IMG/VR virus record: IMGVR_UViG_3300036945_000615
Coordinates: 1-39,980 of that record
Length of the DNA stretch: 39,980 bases
Strand: one strand, 5' to 3'
Origin: a virus
Position 1 is the first letter of the stretch. Each line of letters starts with the position of its first letter. A program made the translations under genes and the position numbers. Below are positions 1 to 38,530 of the stretch, piece after piece. The notes beneath the pieces are model-generated. The model had not been told where the DNA came from. It made no database searches and saw only the letters and a program-made list of their open reading frames with translations.

Positions 1-20
1 TCGGCGCGTTCGCGGCGATG
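1..20. repeat. Terminal direct repeat joining the window ends
   Basis: Bases 1-20 are identical to bases 39961-39980, and the polymerase reading frame passes through this repeat without interruption. This is what a circular assembly with a k-mer overlap looks like. The unique length is then 39,960 bp. A true 20-bp physical terminal repeat is less likely, because it would cut an essential gene in two. Confidence 0.93.
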
Positions 21-590
21 GGCCGGGCGTACAACGTCGTGATGAGCGAGCCAGAAGCCGACAGGATGGTGAAGGCGTGGCGGCGCGCGAACCCGTGGGC
101 GTCTGTGTACTGGTCCGAGCTTGAAGACGCCTACACGCGCGCCATGCGCAACCCCAACCATGTGTTCGCGGTCGGGCGGGTCAAGTACCTGTTCGACGGC
201 GTGCATCTGTGGTATTCTCTGCCTTCCGAGCGCGTGCTGCGCTACCCGTTCGCCCGCTTGGATGCTGACGGCGTCACCTACGCGAAGTGCTCTTGGAAGC
301 CTGCCGCAACGGCGAAAGAATGGCCGCGCGCGCGGCTCTGGAAAGGGCTGGCGTGCGAGAACATCACGCAGGCGATTGCGGCCGACATCCTGCGGGAAGC
401 ACTGGCCAAACTGGAGCGCGACGGCGTGACCGCGCACGTCCACGACGAGATTGTGATTGAGTGCCGTACGGCAGACGCAGAACGCGTCGCCGCGGCGATG
501 CGCCTAGTAATGACGACGCCGCCAGCATGGGCCGAGGGCCTGCCGCTGGGTGTGCAGATCGCTAAACCCATGACGAGGTACGGCAAATAA
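1..590 (+). CDS. Family A DNA polymerase, C-terminal part (continues from the right end)
   Basis: This is the 3' part of the polymerase that begins at 38604. The frame is open from base 3, and the ATG at 18 is an internal Met rather than a start. Joined across the 20-bp overlap the protein is 648 aa. This part carries polymerase motif C as VHDEIVIE, with joined residues H600, D601 and E602, where D601 and E602 are expected to bind the catalytic metals. The stop codon TAA (588-590) shares its last base with the ATG of the downstream primase-helicase (TAATG), so the two replication proteins are probably translationally coupled. The identification is firm because motifs A, B and C all fall in order across the joined protein. 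Confidence 0.95.
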   Translation, partial: GAFAAMGRAYNVVMSEPEADRMVKAWRRANPWASVYWSELEDAYTRAMRNPNHVFAVGRVKYLFDGVHLWYSLPSERVLRYPFARLDADGVTYAKCSWKPAATAKEWPRARLWKGLACENITQAIAADILREALAKLERDGVTAHVHDEIVIECRTADAERVAAAMRLVMTTPPAWAEGLPLGVQIAKPMTRYGK

Positions 591-4141: not shown

Positions 4142-4165
4142 AGCCCGGCGCTTGTGCGCCGGGCT
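4142..4165 (-). repeat. Intercistronic hairpin, copy 1
   Basis: A perfect 10-bp stem (arm AGCCCGGCGC, TTGT loop as written on the + strand). Read leftward it is followed by TTTCTGCGTGCGG, so a short U-tract is present. It lies between the 59-aa membrane protein gene and the start at 4061. It could be a leaky terminator or an mRNA processing or stabilising element. The leader to the next start codon is about 80 bases, longer than at the other copies. Confidence 0.85.
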
Positions 4166-4846: not shown

Positions 4847-5500
4847 CTAGTCGGCGGCGATCATACGTGTAAGGCGGCCGTCGTCATCGCACACAAGGTT
4901 CAGCCCCGGCTTACCCCATGCGTTCGCCTTGCAGTGCGGGCAGGTATAGCGGGTCTTGCTGGCCTTGCGCGCGACGCGCCGCGCCTTGTCGTCATCGGTT
5001 TCAACCGGCGACGTGTACCGCACGGCCCAGCCGTCGGCGATCAACTGGCGCGCCGTGATCTGGAACGCGTGACCGTCCAGAATGTAGTGCGTCATATGCT
5101 GGCCAACCTGAGCGCCGCCCGGCTTGCCTGTGTCGCTGGTCATCAAACCAATGGCCAGCATGCGCCGGGCAAACTCGCGATTGTGATATCCGAACGGGCT
5201 GGGCTTCCCGTTCAGGTGCTGGTCAAGGTGGACCATTTCGTGCGCGATAGTGGACAGGATTTGCTCTGCCGTACGTTCGGCAAAAGTCGCGGGGTTGAGG
5301 CCGATTTCCGCGATTGTCGACGCTGGGTCGTTCTGCGCCGTGTAGCCTTCGGGCATGACGTAGCCGTATGCGTGACGGGTACGCGCCAGCGTGAACATCA
5401 CGTCTGGCAATCGGCCATCAAACAGCGCCATGTTGAGCGTCTGGTATGCCAGCTGAAAGTCGCCATAGGTCTCGGGCGTAGGTGAGTGATCGTGTGTCAT
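4847..5500 (-). CDS. SprT-like zinc metalloprotease
   Basis: A 217-aa protein with the HExxH zinc-protease signature as HEMVH at residues 87-91 and a third ligand candidate, H106, in GYHNREF. This is the SprT/Spartan arrangement. The C-terminus has a zinc-ribbon start, CPHC at 187-190, followed by WGKPGLNLVC; the fourth ligand expected after C204 is replaced by DDD, so the ribbon may be degenerate. SprT proteins of this class cleave DNA-bound or cross-linked proteins. The start at 5500 is chosen over a 286-aa alternative because of a GGAAGG ribosome site and because the protease homology begins there. It lies one base after the preceding stop and follows the AAA+/vWA-like pair. Confidence 0.9.
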   Translation of the reverse strand: MTHDHSPTPETYGDFQLAYQTLNMALFDGRLPDVMFTLARTRHAYGYVMPEGYTAQNDPASTIAEIGLNPATFAERTAEQILSTIAHEMVHLDQHLNGKPSPFGYHNREFARRMLAIGLMTSDTGKPGGAQVGQHMTHYILDGHAFQITARQLIADGWAVRYTSPVETDDDKARRVARKASKTRYTCPHCKANAWGKPGLNLVCDDDGRLTRMIAAD

Positions 5501-5501
5501 G

Positions 5502-5804
5502 TTAGATGCCTTCCATTTCTGATTTGACTGCTTCGATTGTCTGATACGCTTCGTCATCCGGCGCGTCGCGCGACATGCGAGACAGCACGTCACTAACGCG
5601 TTGGCGCATGTCGTTAGAGCCATCTTCGAAAGCGCCGTCGGCGGTCTCGGCGTTGCGCGTGTCGGCGTCGTTCTCGGCGGCGCTGCTTTCTTTCCAGATA
5701 GCCTCAAGTAGCGTCTGGCGCTTCCATTGCGGGATGTGCGTCAGGGGTAAGTCAAAGTCGCCGATGTGCAGCGTGGCTAAGTCATCGCTCATGTAAATGT
5801 TCAT
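5502..5804 (-). CDS. Acidic protein of unknown function (100 aa)
   Basis: It begins MNIYMSDDLATLHIGDFDLP and is strongly acidic in the middle and C-terminal parts (SSAAENDADTRNAETADGAF, DAPDDEAYQTIEAVKSEMEG). The ATG at 5804 has an AGGA ribosome site in the shared CA-rich leader, just after hairpin copy 3. It is separated by one base from the SprT gene, so the two are probably coupled. Acidic phage proteins sometimes mimic DNA, but the charge pattern alone does not establish that here. Confidence 0.65.
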   Translation of the reverse strand: MNIYMSDDLATLHIGDFDLPLTHIPQWKRQTLLEAIWKESSAAENDADTRNAETADGAFEDGSNDMRQRVSDVLSRMSRDAPDDEAYQTIEAVKSEMEGI

Positions 5805-5841
5805 GTGTGCGGTCCTGTGTTGGGGGTTGGTAGTACGCAAG

Positions 5842-5869
5842 CTAGCCCGGCGCTTGTGCGCCGGGCTAG
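5842..5869 (-). repeat. Intercistronic hairpin, copy 3
   Basis: The 10-bp core stem (5844-5867, arm AGCCCGGCGC) is extended by CT/AG to 12 bp. Read leftward it is followed after 3 bases by the box TTGCGTACTA (5831-5840), then a CA-rich leader with AGGA and the start at 5804. It lies 12 bases upstream (+ coordinate side) of nothing else coding: the vWA-like gene ends at 5881. Confidence 0.85.
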
Positions 5870-5880
5870 TAGTCTGCAGG

Positions 5881-6735
5881 CTAGGCTGCGATTTGCTGGC
5901 GCGCCAGTTCGTGCGCAGTCACGTAATTGGCTTCCAGCCACTTACGCGCCGCCGCGTCGGTCTTGAATGGCGATTTATCGCCACACAGGCCCGGGACCGC
6001 AATAAGCGCGTTCTCGGCCTTCAGGATCGGCGCGTAGTACGCGAGAAGTTTCGCCGGGTTGTTTGGGAAGCCGGCGTCACCAAACGCGGGGCGGAGCGCG
6101 TTAGCCTTGCCGTGCAGGTTGTAGAGCACTTCAGCACTCGCCGCCTTAAACCCGTCGCTTGAGAAACTAGCGACCATGCCCCAGACGGCGCGCGCCATAT
6201 CCAGCGGGCGGGTCTCGACCCGCACAAGGCATGTCGCGGTCTCGTTCGTGGATGTGTGCGCTAGGTACAGGTCAACCGCGTGGCCGGTCATGGCCAGCTT
6301 TCGAACCAGCGCCATGACGGCGACGCCGCGGCGTTCCCGGTCACCGTCGCCGATACCGCCGCTCATGTAGGTTTCAACCACGATAGTCAGCGGGGCTAGA
6401 CCCTCTGCAGGCACGCGTCGCCGCATATGCATTGGCGAGCCTGCTAGGTAGGCTGGAACGTCAACGAACCCCCCGGCCATAGCATGGCCCCACTTGGGGA
6501 CGTTGTCGCTGTAGAGGCTATCCGGCTCCTCTATGGTCGCTAGGATCGCCTCGGCTTTGTCGGCTAGCTTCTGGTCACCTGTGGCCAGCGCCCGGCGCGT
6601 CACTGCAGGGTCATAGGACCATGAGTCATATGTGGGTTTGTCATGCAAGTAGGCCGACATATGCTCAAAGTCAGGGAAGATTGCGACGGGGACGCGGGGT
6701 CGACCCGGGCCTTTGGCAGTCGTTATCAGTGTCAT
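5881..6735 (-). CDS. vWA-like partner of the AAA+ ATPase (DUF7192-like)
   Basis: A 284-aa protein. Residues from about 115 on read LTIVVETYMSGGIGDGD, then RRGVAVMALVRKLAMTGHAV and DLYLAHTS. This is the beta-strand, Ser/Gly loop, helix, beta-strand order of a von Willebrand A fold, with a degenerate metal site (the usual DxSxS is not intact). The segment WGHAMAGGFVDVPAYLAGSP with a following MRRRVP is, from memory, similar to phage DUF7192 proteins. Its gene directly follows the MoxR/CobS-like ATPase, the pairing known for MoxR-vWA systems. Start 6735 was chosen from an AGGA site in the CA-rich leader; 15 further upstream codons are open. The vWA assignment is an inference from pattern and context. 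Confidence 0.6.
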   Translation of the reverse strand: MTLITTAKGPGRPRVPVAIFPDFEHMSAYLHDKPTYDSWSYDPAVTRRALATGDQKLADKAEAILATIEEPDSLYSDNVPKWGHAMAGGFVDVPAYLAGSPMHMRRRVPAEGLAPLTIVVETYMSGGIGDGDRERRGVAVMALVRKLAMTGHAVDLYLAHTSTNETATCLVRVETRPLDMARAVWGMVASFSSDGFKAASAEVLYNLHGKANALRPAFGDAGFPNNPAKLLAYYAPILKAENALIAVPGLCGDKSPFKTDAAARKWLEANYVTAHELARQQIAA

Positions 6736-6781
6736 GTGTGTGTGTGTCCTGTGTTGGTGGTGGTGGGTGCTAGTACGCAAG

Positions 6782-6809
6782 CTAGCCCGGCGCTTGTGCG
6801 CCGGGCTAG
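6782..6809 (-). repeat. Intercistronic hairpin, copy 4
   Basis: This is identical in its 12-bp extended stem to copy 3, and again followed leftward by TTGCGTACTA (6771-6780), a CA-rich leader and AGGA before the start at 6735. It lies between the AAA+ ATPase stop and the vWA-like gene. A CGTACG site sits at 6817-6822, between the ATPase stop codon and the hairpin. Confidence 0.85.
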
Positions 6810-6830
6810 TAGTCTGCCGTACGTTAGAGG

Positions 6831-8219
6831 CTAGGCGGCGACCATGCGGCGCTGATCAGGCGACAGGTCGGCCAAGTAGGTCATGTCCGCTGCTTCGTCT
6901 GCAGTGAACCCGGCTTCGATCAGGCGCGCGCCGGATATAGACGCTTGCGGGGTAATCATGACTTTGAGACCCGCGGCGCGCGCCTTGGCGCGTGTCGCTT
7001 GAACCCGTGCGGCCCATTCGGGATTACCGCAGATAGCGACTTCCAGCGTGGTGTCATAGTCCCAAGCGAGGCGCGCCCCAAACCTTTGCAGGAACGCCGC
7101 GTCGATGCGCGCCGCGCCGCAGTAGTCTGACGTCGCGCCGCCGCCCCATGTGTTTGCGGCAGCGATACACACAAAGTCGGGATGCGCTTCGATCAGTTCA
7201 CCATTAGGCAGGCTCATGATGCGATTTGCGAGGGGCGCGTTCATGGCAAGTAGAGCCTCGTTCGAACCCCGGTCGACTTCATCCAGCAGCACTAGGCCGC
7301 CATTGCGGAAAGCCTGTACAAACTGGGTCTCATGGTAGTGTCCAGCGCCGTCCACGAACCCCTCAAGTTGATGGGCCATAGTCATGCTGCCGTGGAAGTG
7401 AAACTTGAGACCCAGCGCCTTGGCAGCTGCTTTTGCTGCAGTCGTCTTACCGCCTTGCGACGGCCCGGCGATCCACACATTGACTTTCGCACTAAGTGCT
7501 TTGATCAGCTTGGGAAGCAAGTAGTGCTGCAGGCCGTCCACAGTGTGGACGTGGGCCGGCGTGGTCACGGTTAGCTGAGTCGACGGGCGCTGGTTGATAC
7601 GCTCGATAACAGGCACCAGCGCCGCGGAAATCAGCTGCTTGACGGCGTCGAAGTCAATCGCAGGTGTCTGCGGTTGGGCCGGTTGGGGTTGGTTCGCTTG
7701 AACAGTGGCGACGAACGCCGCGAGTGCTGCGGCGATGTCGGTTGACTGGGTCTGGGTCGGGGCTGGCGTCTGGTCAACGTCTGCCGTACGCTTGATGCGG
7801 CGGCGGGGTTGATCGGTCGGGGTCTGGTCGGCGTCATACTGGTCAACCGCGCGGGCGATGACGTCGGGCGGCAGTATGCTGGCCAGCGTTGAGGGCTGGT
7901 CTGTCGCTTTCGCGCCAGCTGTGAGCGTGTAGACCGGGTAAGCGTCGGGTTGGGTTGTGACGTTGCCAGTCGTGACCACGTCCGCAGCGATTGACCGGGC
8001 GTAGGTCTCACCTTGGGGAGTGTATGGCGCGCGCCATGTTTCGTCCGATTTGTTATAGGAGAACCCGTGTTCACGGATATCGTTGCGAAGCGGGTAGGTC
8101 CCTTCAGACAGTATGATTTGATGCGGGGTTATCTCGGCTTTGATCGTGCGAGGCTTGCGTGCGCCGGTTGACGCTGGCGACGCCGTGGCGTCGGTTGTGT
8201 TTTTGGGTACGGCGAACAT
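6831..8219 (-). CDS. MoxR/CobS-family AAA+ ATPase
   Basis: A 462-aa protein with a clear AAA+ core: Walker A GPSQGGKTT at 252-260, Walker B GLVLLDEVDRG at 308-318 (D313, E314), sensor-1 asparagine in AAANTWG near N356, and DAAFLQRFG near 373-381 as the arginine-finger region. Family members remodel protein complexes or drive metal insertion together with a vWA partner, and the next gene appears to be that partner. The first ~80 residues (SYNKSDETWRAPYTPQGETY) may be a small substrate- or DNA-binding domain, followed by a Pro/Gln/Thr-rich linker (about 105-185). Start 8219 has AGGA in the CA-rich leader. The exact substrate is unknown. Confidence 0.88.
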   Translation of the reverse strand: MFAVPKNTTDATASPASTGARKPRTIKAEITPHQIILSEGTYPLRNDIREHGFSYNKSDETWRAPYTPQGETYARSIAADVVTTGNVTTQPDAYPVYTLTAGAKATDQPSTLASILPPDVIARAVDQYDADQTPTDQPRRRIKRTADVDQTPAPTQTQSTDIAAALAAFVATVQANQPQPAQPQTPAIDFDAVKQLISAALVPVIERINQRPSTQLTVTTPAHVHTVDGLQHYLLPKLIKALSAKVNVWIAGPSQGGKTTAAKAAAKALGLKFHFHGSMTMAHQLEGFVDGAGHYHETQFVQAFRNGGLVLLDEVDRGSNEALLAMNAPLANRIMSLPNGELIEAHPDFVCIAAANTWGGGATSDYCGAARIDAAFLQRFGARLAWDYDTTLEVAICGNPEWAARVQATRAKARAAGLKVMITPQASISGARLIEAGFTADEAADMTYLADLSPDQRRMVAA

Positions 8220-8268
8220 GTGTTTGTGTCCTGTTTTGAGGGTGACGGTTGGGGGTAGTACGCAAAAC

Positions 8269-8292
8269 AGCCCGGCGCTTGTGCGCCGGGCT
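8269..8292 (-). repeat. Intercistronic hairpin, copy 5
   Basis: Same 10-bp stem and TTGT loop. Read leftward it is followed by GTTTTGCGTACTA, so a short U-tract and the TTGCGTACTA box (8256-8265) are fused. Next come the leader and the AGGA ribosome site of the AAA+ gene. It sits between that gene and the 33-aa membrane microprotein. Confidence 0.85.
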
Positions 8293-8414: not shown

Positions 8415-8452
8415 GTGTTTTGCTTTCCTGTGTCAGTGCTAGTACGCAAACG

Positions 8453-8476
8453 AGCCCGGCGCTTGTGCGCCGGGCT
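8453..8476 (-). repeat. Intercistronic hairpin, copy 6
   Basis: Same 10-bp stem and loop. Read leftward it is followed by CGTTTGCGTACTA, which contains the TTGCGTACTA box, and then by the ribosome site of the 33-aa microprotein at 8414. It lies 10 bases after the stop of the 68-aa gene. Confidence 0.85.
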
Positions 8477-36349: not shown

Positions 36350-36445
36350 GCGCCTTTATATGCATAGGAGCAAATCGCAGGCAAGGCCCCTTGCACAGAA
36401 AAGTTGACCGTGCTACCTAGGGGCCTAGGAACAGAAGGGACGGAT
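36350..36445. promoter_or_regulatory. Divergent control region of the replication genes
   Basis: The 96-bp gap separates the nuclease-helicase cluster and the replication operon. It contains a near-palindrome GCAAGG-CC-CCTTGC (36381-36394), TTGACC at 36404-36409 (possible rightward -35, though no good -10 follows at 16-18 bp), and two CCTAGG palindromes at 36416 and 36424, 8 bp apart. An AT-rich TTTATATGCAT lies near the leftward start. Promoters for both directions and a shared operator are expected here. Confidence 0.5.
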
Positions 36446-37570
36446 ATGAGCCAACACAGTAAGATCGTCGGTGGAAGCACCGCCAAGCGTGTGATAAACT
36501 GCCCCGGCAGCGTCACACTGGTAAGCAAAATGCCCCCGAAGCCGTCAAGCAGCTACGCCGATGAAGGTACGCTCCTTCATGATACCATCGCGGCTATGCT
36601 GACGCTGGACTACCCGGCTGACGGGTTTCTCGGCAAGAGCTACGGCAGCGCCGTACTCACCCAAGACCTGATCGAAGACAAGATCGTGCCCGCGCTGGCG
36701 CGTCTCGCCGAGGTTGACCCCGACAGGACGCTGGAATTTGAGGTTGAAGCCTTCGTGGGTTTCGGCGACTTCATGCCCGGCGTGTTCGGCTCTGCTGATA
36801 TCATCGGCAGGCGCGGCAACACCGCCATCGTGCTAGACTGGAAGTTCGGCAACGGCGTGATGGTCGACGCCGAGGAAAACGAGCAGCTGATGTTCTACGC
36901 GGCCGCAGCGATGCGGACGCCTGCAACGCAGTGGGCGTTCGAAGGGATCGACGAAGTCGAGCTTGTGATCATCCAGCCGCCAGCCATGCGGCGCTGGAAG
37001 ACAACCGTGAAGCGCCTGAAGCGTTTCGAGGCTGAGCTACTCGGCGCGGTGAACCTGTCCACGAAAGCCGCAGCCCCTCTCAAGAGCGGAACATGGTGCC
37101 GGTGGTGTTCCGCCTCCCCGACGTGCCCGGCGCAAAACGGCGAAGTCGAACGTACGCTCAAGACGCAACTCAAGGGCGTCGATGCGAAACTGCTAGGCGA
37201 ACTCCTGACGCAAGCTGACGTGCTTGAAGACTGGATCAAGTCGGCGCGTGAGCTTGCCGAGCACATGCTCACATCCAACGTGCCGGTGCCCGGCTACAAG
37301 CTGGTCCCCAAGCGCGCGACGCGCTCGTGGGCCAACGAAGGCATCGCCAAGGCGACGCTACTCGGGATGGGCGTGCAGTCGTCGGCGCTGGTCGAGACCA
37401 AGATGAAGTCGCCCGCGCAGGTCGAGAAACTCTTGCCCCGTGGCGAGAAACTCCCGGCCGATCTCGTGCAGGCGATATCTTCTGGTAACACTATTGCTCC
37501 AGAGAGTGACCCACGGCCCGCGGTCATGACCGTCGGGAAATCCCTCGCAGCTGCATTGGGGAAACTATGA
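36446..37570 (+). CDS. RecB/Cas4-like PD-(D/E)XK nuclease (DUF2800-like)
   Basis: A 374-aa nuclease. An early motif E40/H45 (DEGTLLHDT) is followed by the core GVFGSADIIGRR with D118 and VLDWKFGNG with D131 and K133. Cysteines C19, C218, C221 and C227 (CRWCSASPTCPA) match the iron-sulphur pattern of AddB/Cas4 nucleases. Start 36446 (MSQHSKIVGGSTAKRVINCP) has AAGGGACGG upstream; 14 further codons are open. It is the first gene of the rightward replication operon and probably trims DNA ends for recombination or replication. Confidence 0.88.
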   Translation: MSQHSKIVGGSTAKRVINCPGSVTLVSKMPPKPSSSYADEGTLLHDTIAAMLTLDYPADGFLGKSYGSAVLTQDLIEDKIVPALARLAEVDPDRTLEFEVEAFVGFGDFMPGVFGSADIIGRRGNTAIVLDWKFGNGVMVDAEENEQLMFYAAAAMRTPATQWAFEGIDEVELVIIQPPAMRRWKTTVKRLKRFEAELLGAVNLSTKAAAPLKSGTWCRWCSASPTCPAQNGEVERTLKTQLKGVDAKLLGELLTQADVLEDWIKSARELAEHMLTSNVPVPGYKLVPKRATRSWANEGIAKATLLGMGVQSSALVETKMKSPAQVEKLLPRGEKLPADLVQAISSGNTIAPESDPRPAVMTVGKSLAAALGKL

Positions 37571-37773
37571 ACGTTCTCGACGCCGCAAAAGACCTGCAGG
37601 CCGCAGCCGACGAAGTGCTGGAGCTACGGCGGCGCTACACCGCCGCTGTAGGCCACGCAGAGACGTGCCTGCGCGTAGCGGCCACGATGCGCGAGCAGGC
37701 GCCGCTCGCGAAGCGCAAATGGTACGACACACAGATCAACAGTCTCGGCATCGTATTGGGGCTAATGAAATGA
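37567..37773 (+). CDS. Small coiled-coil protein (68 aa)
   Basis: A helical protein (MNVLDAAKDLQAAADEVLEL, then RRRYTAAVGHAETCLRVAAT) with heptad character. ATGA overlaps at both ends tie it to the nuclease and to the 37-aa gene. No family recognised; it probably assists the replication proteins encoded around it. Confidence 0.65.
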   Translation: MNVLDAAKDLQAAADEVLELRRRYTAAVGHAETCLRVAATMREQAPLAKRKWYDTQINSLGIVLGLMK

Positions 37774-37883
37774 CATACAAGAATTTCCTGTTGACGACGG
37801 CCAGCAGGACAGTCATCGCTAACGTGACTGCAAAAGCCGTCAAACAACTCTACCAACCCAACAAGAAAGACCAAACACTATGA
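37770..37883 (+). CDS. Small basic protein (37 aa)
   Basis: The short frame MTYKNFLLTTASRTVIANVT, then AKAVKQLYQPNKKDQTL, is flanked by ATGA overlaps with both neighbours. The spacing leaves no doubt that ribosomes pass through here; the basic C-terminal tail could contact nucleic acid. A longer upstream frame exists but is a shadow of the preceding gene. Function unknown. Confidence 0.6.
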   Translation: MTYKNFLLTTASRTVIANVTAKAVKQLYQPNKKDQTL

Positions 37884-38530
37884 CCACCGCACTCACCACT
37901 TTCGGAAACGCCAAGCTGCCGTCAGTCGCAACGCTGTCGTCGGCGCTCAAGAAGAACGTCGAGAACATCGCCCCCTCGGGCATGGCCATCCTCAAGTTCG
38001 ACAAGACCGGCGCTTGGGTCTTCGGCGCGAACGCCGATGAAACCGAGGAAGGCTCCCTGTGGGCCGTCAACCCGTACTCGTTCGCTCACGGCTTCATCGC
38101 TTGGGGCGACGGACAGCCGGTCGGCGAAGTCATGGCCCCCATGACCGACGACCTGCCGCAAGTCGGCCCGCTCCCCCCGGGCGTCGATGACAAGGGCTGG
38201 CAGACGCAGGTCGGCCTCGCCCTGAAGTGCATCTCCGGGCAGGACAAGGGCCTTGAGGTTCGCTTCTCCACGACGTCTGTCGGCGGCAAGCGCGCCGTGC
38301 AGGCTCTCGGCATCGCTCTCGCCGAGCAGATCGACAAGGACCAAGACAACCCGGTCGCTGTCGTGACGCTGGAAGGCTCCAGCTACAAACACTCGTCGTA
38401 CGGCAAAGTCCATACGCCCGAGTTCGCTATCGTCAAGTTCGTTTCGCTTGACGGTGCTGACGACGTGCAGGTCGCTCCCCCGGCTCCCGCCCCCGAGCCG
38501 GAAAAGACCACGCGTCGCCGTCGCGCCTAA
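37880..38530 (+). CDS. Putative ssDNA-binding protein (216 aa)
   Basis: This beta-rich protein (GMAILKFDKTGAWVFGANAD, SLWAVNPYSFAHGFIAWGDG, VALKCISGQDKGLEVRFSTT) occupies the slot between the DUF2800-like nuclease and the DNA polymerase, where phage modules of this kind encode an OB-fold ssDNA-binding protein. It is not clearly like DUF2815. The C-terminus is Pro/Ala-rich and ends in a basic TTRRRRA, not the usual acidic tip of SSBs. It is the last gene before the strong terminator. Assignment by context. Confidence 0.55.
   Translation: MTTALTTFGNAKLPSVATLSSALKKNVENIAPSGMAILKFDKTGAWVFGANADETEEGSLWAVNPYSFAHGFIAWGDGQPVGEVMAPMTDDLPQVGPLPPGVDDKGWQTQVGLALKCISGQDKGLEVRFSTTSVGGKRAVQALGIALAEQIDKDQDNPVAVVTLEGSSYKHSSYGKVHTPEFAIVKFVSLDGADDVQVAPPAPAPEPEKTTRRRRA

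Follow-up and report, generated by a model that had tools for sequence, protein, structure and literature searches.

What would a phage do with a MoxR-type AAA+ ATPase, a von Willebrand factor A (vWA)-like protein and a SprT protease encoded next to one another? The question is raised by IMG/VR virus record IMGVR_UViG_3300036945_000615, a stretch of 39,980 bases that was analysed as a whole and is referred to here as the window. An earlier note on this DNA had placed the three genes consecutively in one operon. All three do lie on the minus strand at the place described, but they are not consecutive, as an open reading frame (ORF) of 100 amino acids intervenes between the vWA-like partner and SprT (Table 1). 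The answer we favour, with a probability of roughly one in two, is that the phage encodes an AAA+/vWA remodelling machine to which a Spartan-like protein belongs as third subunit. This view is based on the protein families, the predicted folds, the fixed pairing of ATPase and partner, the recurrent and independent acquisition of SprT, and catalytic losses in three SprTs that belong to such trios; from these we infer a physical complex, its mode of docking, its target and its role in infection.

The ATPase and its partner form a fixed pair. Single-protein scans of viral contigs returned 1, 4 and 1 loci, and alignments were therefore used as queries. A six-row alignment of the partner recovered 59 viral loci, and every one has the ATPase directly upstream of the partner, with both genes on one strand (a few are cut by the contig end), while the converse scan with the window ATPase gave four loci, all of them with the partner. 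Phages carrying the pair include phiM5, Rhizobium P106B, RHph_X2_24, Tunturi_4, mycobacteriophage Silverleaf, a Staphylococcus phage and Lactobacillus 3-521. Alignment A1 and the partner profile drew on genes after or near the ATPase in named phages, picked by position, and kinship was tested afterwards; the gene in question matched DUF7192 above the cut-off in all seven of the named phages tested by Pfam. The ATPase matched 879 phage records; by profile it belongs to phrog_249, a family to which many records give the label 'porphyrin biosynthesis' or CobS. With a DUF7192 gene beside or near the ATPases examined, a remodelling pair fits better than cobalamin synthesis, which suggests that, for this part of phrog_249 at least, the label is misleading (7/7 phages tested).

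The class of the ATPase is supported by matches to AAA_5 in Pfam (E 2.3e-10) and to phrog_249 (7e-46), and its family profile matches midasin (several domains each), CobS, CbbQ and NorQ chains in PDB. Both Walker motifs are intact (A, GPSQGGKT; B, LVLLDEVD), and in this respect the MoxR/CobS-type ATPase with intact motifs that had been described stands. The word intact fails at one position, which we take to be that of the sensor-2 arginine of the MoxR family; the window ATPase has Q here and the other 78 of the 79 ATPases compared have R. These include L006, a contig of 8488 bases from a close relative of the window whose terminase is identical to the window's at 517 of 519 residues, and since L006 keeps the arginine, the change to Q is by comparison of the sequences a peculiarity of the window copy.

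The partner belongs to DUF7192 (PF23822; E 5.4e-7, 29.7 bits against a curated cut-off of 27) and to phrog_1909 (2.3e-14). An alignment of 47 rows was made from the window protein and 46 of the 59 scan loci, with near-copies, short or stop-containing ranges and a few others by choice making up the 13 omitted, and the AlphaFold (AF2) model from these sequences had a mean predicted local distance difference test score (pLDDT) of 85.1 and a predicted template modelling score (pTM) of 0.84. The top five rows of a Foldseek search of PDB were NorD vWA chains from NorQ-NorD complexes, with TM-scores of 0.31-0.37 and two rows at E ≤0.001 (best row: E 1e-4, probability 0.98, TM-score 0.31). VIA-align also put the NorD vWA domain first (Z 8.1 over 208 residues at 4.5 Å), the sole row of 999 at Z ≥8, followed by a pilus adhesin (Z 7.2) and midasin metal ion-dependent adhesion site (MIDAS) domains (6.8-6.9). 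Against a viral structure library, other DUF7192 proteins ranked highest, followed by phage proteins that carry the names vWA or CobT. We take the domains heading these lists to be vWA-type from their titles. The sequence profile of the partner found no vWA protein among PDB sequences, and the vWA match comes from fold comparison only. A Z near 8 by itself would be weak, yet because vWA-type domains lead the match lists and the viral library gives vWA and CobT names, we consider a vWA-type fold credible. Special kinship to NorD is less sure, given these TM-scores, the Z of 8.1 and a pilus adhesin within 1 of it.

The lack of a vWA fold in a predicted structure had been named in the earlier note as the outcome that would speak against its degenerate vWA-like protein; a vWA-type fold was found in the model, and its MIDAS is indeed degenerate. 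Where the motif is DxSxS, the window partner reads E121-T-Y-M-S125; 34 of the 47 rows have the aspartate for which the window has E, and 44 of them have S125.

NorD also offers a candidate for how the partner meets the ATPase. According to PMC13036017, NorD residues 403-448 make up a finger; it enters the NorQ pore, and remodelling depends on it. Our structural alignment with Paracoccus NorD chain 9qh8 starts at its residue 382, equivalent to model residue 55 (end points only), and a finger would therefore be expected in the partner after helix 55-69 and before strand 116-121. Of the 25 columns most conserved in the family, 9 lie in this stretch (88, 93, 94, 95, 98, 99, 101, 104 and 107), and three of the family's four invariant columns fall within the proposed finger region. 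Model confidence is low there, with block means of 59-69 across residues 71-110, and the finger motif is recognisable in 15 of the 15 trio loci listed. By element order and conserved columns, partner residues ~70-112 may be an AAA-docking finger.

The third protein was described as a SprT/Spartan-type protease, and this description is borne out. It matches SprT-like in Pfam (4.5e-10) as well as phrog_6361, and carries HEMVH, a third histidine (H106) and zinc-ribbon-like cysteines at the C-terminus. Residues H87, E88, H91 and H106 are invariant in 40 SprT rows, the HExxH partly by construction, as the scan supplying these rows used HEM[VT]HL as one of two patterns. The AF2 model (pLDDT 88.3) is best matched by the Spartan protease domain 6mdx (Z 10.0, 102 residues, 2.4 Å), and next by the archaeal minigluzincins selecase and abylysin; Foldseek gave an E of only 1e-3, and a profile of window-type SprT sequences reaches Spartan in PDB at E 0.3 only. 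The predicted fold is that of a Spartan-type minigluzincin. Spartan is a protease of DNA-protein-crosslink repair.

How often does SprT join the pair? PF10263 was searched over the whole records of all 59 pair loci and eight other records, and it scored above the cut-off in L006 and lower, beside the pair, in L066 and L070, so that SprT accompanies the pair in 3 of the 59 partner-scan loci; a weak match in G013 (E 0.0038) is far from the pair. The sensitivity of PF10263 is modest here (0.047 for L153, none for L164), and profiles of both SprT types run on the 59 loci found no further SprT. The SprTs of L066 and L070 pointed to a second subfamily, and a scan for it found 15 loci, 10 of which have the pair. 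This count becomes 8 of 13 minus the two query contigs, and 7 of 12 when L164 and L165, which have identical SprT DNA on contigs of different metagenomes, are counted once. SprT adjoins the pair in nine of the ten; in the remaining one, L156, the two are separated by 1.4-1.9 kb that contain other ORFs. One of these ORFs (8394-9152 of L156, between partner and SprT) has, by eye, the sequence of a P-loop ATPase.

In partner scans started from trio clades, 9 of 10 loci of one clade had SprT next to the pair (3 of 4 new contigs), and SprT was present in 3 of 3 for another (1 of 1 new contig). The gene order is SprT-ATPase-partner in most trios, and ATPase-partner-SprT in the window, L006, L155, L156 and L181; neither in the window nor in any of 10 trio loci examined is SprT fused to the partner. 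Searches of bacterial genomes returned no locus with one trio partner clade and a single locus with another, L183 in Geminisphaera colitermitum TAV2, which is identical to viral locus L181 over 20,789 bases and was counted once with it. The trios come from uncultivated viruses and from two IMG/VR contigs with numbering that suggests isolate genomes, one of which matches Geminisphaera. The gene-neighbourhood survey proposed in the earlier note, with no co-occurrence as its adverse outcome, located the trio at other loci, with either gene order and with SprTs from two subfamilies.

Trees of the ATPase (74 of 92 rows, omitting same-contig, near-identical and <150-amino-acid rows) and of SprT (55 rows: 22 non-redundant second-type and 33 window-type, the latter every third plus chosen ones) were used to follow these associations. 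Both are quick searches, and long branches meet in the ATPase tree. On the ATPase tree the trio label takes three changes, at least two of them forced by starred branches, and these changes cannot distinguish gain from loss. The window and L006 fall there in a starred set of eight in which the others are without SprT (98), and in the SprT tree they group with two pairless SprTs (96), within the branch of window-type sequences and away from the second type. A single gain of SprT is hard to reconcile with two SprT subfamilies standing on either side of the pair, and since the window's SprT is in a different subfamily, nearly always pairless (see below), its recruitment appears independent. Judging from genes and trees, SprT is an occasional third gene that has joined the pair more than once, independently.

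Not all of these SprTs look like active proteases. HExxH is lost in the SprT of L164/L165, L176 and L177, and the gene stays beside the pair in each. These SprTs, catalytically dead by sequence, are full-length ORFs that keep the CxxC pair and match phrog_6361 strongly, and the ATPase and finger motifs are intact in their loci. Those of L164 and L177 both read QQ for HE. The ATPase tree parts L164, L176 and L177, with L176 beside the intact L174, L177 beside the intact L166 and a value of 85 for the placement of L164, and thus indicates three losses; the SprT tree unites L164 with L177 (81) and indicates two. Dead SprTs were not significantly enriched in trios (3 of 13 non-redundant second-type SprTs vs 0 of 9 pairless; one-sided Fisher p ~0.19), and all nine second-type SprTs without the pair in the fetched DNA have HExxH. 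That SprT is sometimes kept without proteolysis favours a binding role for it.

Repeated assembly of the trio in other viruses suggests that the three proteins work together, and a plausible mechanism can be outlined. The ATPase would assemble as a MoxR-type hexamer onto which the DUF7192 protein docks by its vWA domain, and the conserved finger would reach into the pore. Hydrolysis of ATP would then shift the vWA protein, which would pull or twist a bound target. The SprT-like protein could be the target-binding subunit, also cutting the target where its site is intact, as in the window, and the target is probably a protein on or near nucleic acid. If the trio does cooperate, it would offer a small phage system for the long-standing question of how MoxR-vWA motors choose and act on their targets, and the dead-protease variants would allow pulling and cutting to be separated.

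Several results weigh against such a machine. The dead SprTs tell against its proteolytic version. Taken as a whole, the finger stretch (mean 2.41 bits) is no better conserved than the first strand (2.53) and helix (2.59) of the vWA core. With neither the MIDAS aspartate nor the sensor-2 arginine, the window's own pair may, as far as its sequence indicates, be impaired or differently tuned. No SprT was found for 56 of the 59 pairs (PF10263 on whole records, two SprT profiles on loci), and removal of DNA-bound protein by SprT is therefore not the general job of the pair. Conversely, a scan for window-type SprT, from which the best 80 of 126 loci were taken, many on short contigs, found 79 without ATPase or partner, L006 being the exception. 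L179, from a later partner scan, has a weak SprT match 6 kb off (0.0011) and none by PF10263. The 14 stretches examined from named phages showed no trio, and for named phages with a second-type SprT (4 of 163 records examined) no annotated pair lay within 5 kb.

These counts lend weight to a second account, in which the ATPase-DUF7192 pair is the functional unit and SprT an independent accessory, adjacent because such phage genes collect together. The 5 of 15 second-type loci without the pair add to it, one of which (L161) ends 640 bases past SprT. We see this as a serious possibility that falls short of being probable, as it has to explain why SprTs of two subfamilies adjoin the pair, on one side or the other and in at least two branches of the ATPase tree, and the retention of SprT in most new contigs of the two trio clades. 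SprT is also the top same-strand neighbour cluster, at 13 of 73 loci, but many of these loci were fetched by SprT and the count is no frequency estimate; the next cluster, of 12, consists of ORFs antisense to terminase in one phage group.

A narrower form of the remodelling machine takes its model from yeast, where Cdc48-Doa1-Wss1, as presented in PMC4559962, brings an AAA+ ATPase, an adaptor and a minigluzincin into one complex acting on chromatin-bound protein. It is a precedent for this combination, and differs in being SUMO-based and eukaryotic (PMC4559962). The trio could be a phage counterpart, assembled at least twice, in which SprT mainly recognises the substrate, the AAA+/DUF7192 unfoldase clears proteins off phage nucleic acid and proteolysis is optional. 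We hold this to be rather doubtful in so specific a form. Were it true, trios with dead sites would be machines that remove their target by pulling alone. The AAA+ class and the adaptor of Cdc48-Doa1-Wss1 differ from those of the phage trio.

A role in virion assembly or maturation, with the pair as an assembly chaperone and SprT processing a structural protein, seems unlikely to us. The same role is proposed in PMC7824862 for the metallopeptidase-vWA and MoxR proteins of group 2.2 jumbo phages, with a citation of Acidianus two-tailed virus, whose tail assembly requires a MoxR-vWA pair; a small ORF within the ATPase gene of phiM5 is moreover noted in the particle proteome. In the window, however, the module is outside the structural block and on the strand opposite to terminase, as it is in L171 and L177, where terminase was identified by eye, and dead SprTs could process nothing.

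Two further ideas are very improbable. That the pair helps SprT, a zinc protease, to mature or to acquire its metal, like NorQD in iron insertion into nitric oxide reductase, has in its favour that metal insertion is an established MoxR-vWA role (PMC13036017) and that the third gene encodes a metalloprotease, but we rank it low because three trio SprTs have lost catalytic-site residues including zinc ligands and are still with the pair; moreover, no SprT was found for 56 of 59 pairs. Counter-defence, the possibility raised in the earlier note, in which the trio clears host defence proteins or protein adducts off phage DNA, would suit Spartan as the best match of the SprT model and a distribution that is patchy among viruses, as that of conflict genes often is, but PADLOC left the window's three proteins unmatched (the L166 ATPase was matched only weakly, to IetA, at 6e-4) and catalytic residues are lost in the three trio SprTs.

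Among known systems close to the proposed remodelling machine is NorQ-NorD of Paracoccus, with a MoxR-class ATPase, a vWA partner that is the best match to our model, and a finger whose candidate counterpart is at the corresponding place by element order, not residue by residue. NorD is larger and acts on nitric oxide reductase, whereas the window's DUF7192 protein is without the MIDAS aspartate and has a SprT neighbour. Group 2.2 jumbo phages likewise have MoxR, vWA and metallopeptidase domains in one phage module, according to PMC7824862; there the peptidase is fused to the vWA protein, and here SprT is a separate gene acquired more than once. That paper mentions SprT separately from MoxR and the metallopeptidase-vWA fusion. 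In the open-access literature searched, three papers named SprT together with MoxR, and the one among them that concerns phages has the two only as these separate items. MoxR-vWA ternary conflict systems (VMAP, iSTAND, FtsH, beta-propeller) also add a third conserved component to the core and include vWA members without MIDAS aspartates; they are mainly from multicellular prokaryotes, with no SprT as third component in the part of PMC7159879 seen. vWA-AAA pairs occur in archaeal viruses too (PMC7911831).

No mention of DUF7192 was found in the open-access literature searched. The comparisons above turn this phage family, so far without an assigned function, and its 'porphyrin biosynthesis' neighbour into a recognisable MoxR-vWA remodelling pair, beside which phages have repeatedly set a Spartan-type protease. 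New here are the dead trio SprTs, the conserved partner residues at the place of the NorD finger, and the MIDAS and sensor-2 losses of the window.

The genes of the module and the repeated elements that precede them are listed in Table 1. A hairpin with a 9-bp stem and a 4-base loop has five exact copies in the window vs 0.29 expected. The copy at the lowest coordinates is without TTGCGTACTA, and in the remaining four the hairpin is followed on the minus strand by TTGCGTACTA and then a gene start. Such a leader stands before a 33-amino-acid ORF (read by eye), the ATPase, the partner and the 100-amino-acid ORF, and so the earlier claim that one leader joins the trio applies to ATPase and partner, each with a leader, and not to SprT, which has none of its own and follows the 100-amino-acid ORF that does. 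A sigma-70 scan of the leaders gave 2 sites vs 2.0 expected. It is possible that the repeated hairpin leader is an element for gene-by-gene mRNA processing, stability or attenuation. L006 also holds one exact AGCTTGCGTACTA.

Table 1. Module genes and repeated leader elements in the window (aa, amino acids)
Feature	Position	Strand	Remarks
MoxR/CobS/NorQ-class AAA+ ATPase, 462 aa (P0002)	6831-8219	-	AAA_5, phrog_249
DUF7192 vWA-type partner, 284 aa (P0001)	5881-6735	-	DUF7192, phrog_1909, fold model
100-aa ORF between partner and SprT (P0004)	5502-5804	-	no Pfam match, nothing convincing among phrogs
SprT/Spartan-type minigluzincin, 217 aa (P0003)	4847-5500	-	SprT-like, phrog_6361, fold model
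Leader hairpin upstream of ATPase	8270-8291	-	exact copy; the only one called terminator-like
Leader hairpin upstream of partner	6785-6806	-	exact copy; leader folding z -6.1
Leader hairpin upstream of 100-aa ORF and SprT	5845-5866	-	exact copy
Further hairpin copies	4143-4164 and 8454-8475		exact
TTGCGTACTA element after hairpin	8256-8265, 6771-6780, 5831-5840, 8440-8449	-	four exact copies

SprT starts 1 base past the stop of the 100-amino-acid ORF. This ORF is missing in L006, where SprT comes right after the partner. Elsewhere the window has genes for a portal and a coat protein of P22 type, for a DUF2800 protein and for a primase of DUF5906/RepB type.

A few smaller observations concern the ATPases and the record itself. 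The N-terminal parts of these ATPases vary widely among phages, as if choosing targets, and that of the window ATPase (residues ~40-100) resembles by eye the N-terminus of the P106B partner (L010 5213-5400); the P106B partner has a weak DUF5710 match (0.0012), below the cut-off. The small ORF in phiM5, Sm_phiM5_65, is located at 1349-1546 of L002 inside the ATPase gene, and its detection in the particle proteome is reported in the record note. Finally, an ORF starting at base 18 of the window (1-590) resembles by eye the end of a family A polymerase; this ORF and DUF2800 near the opposite end (36404-38530) give the record the look of being circular or circularly permuted.

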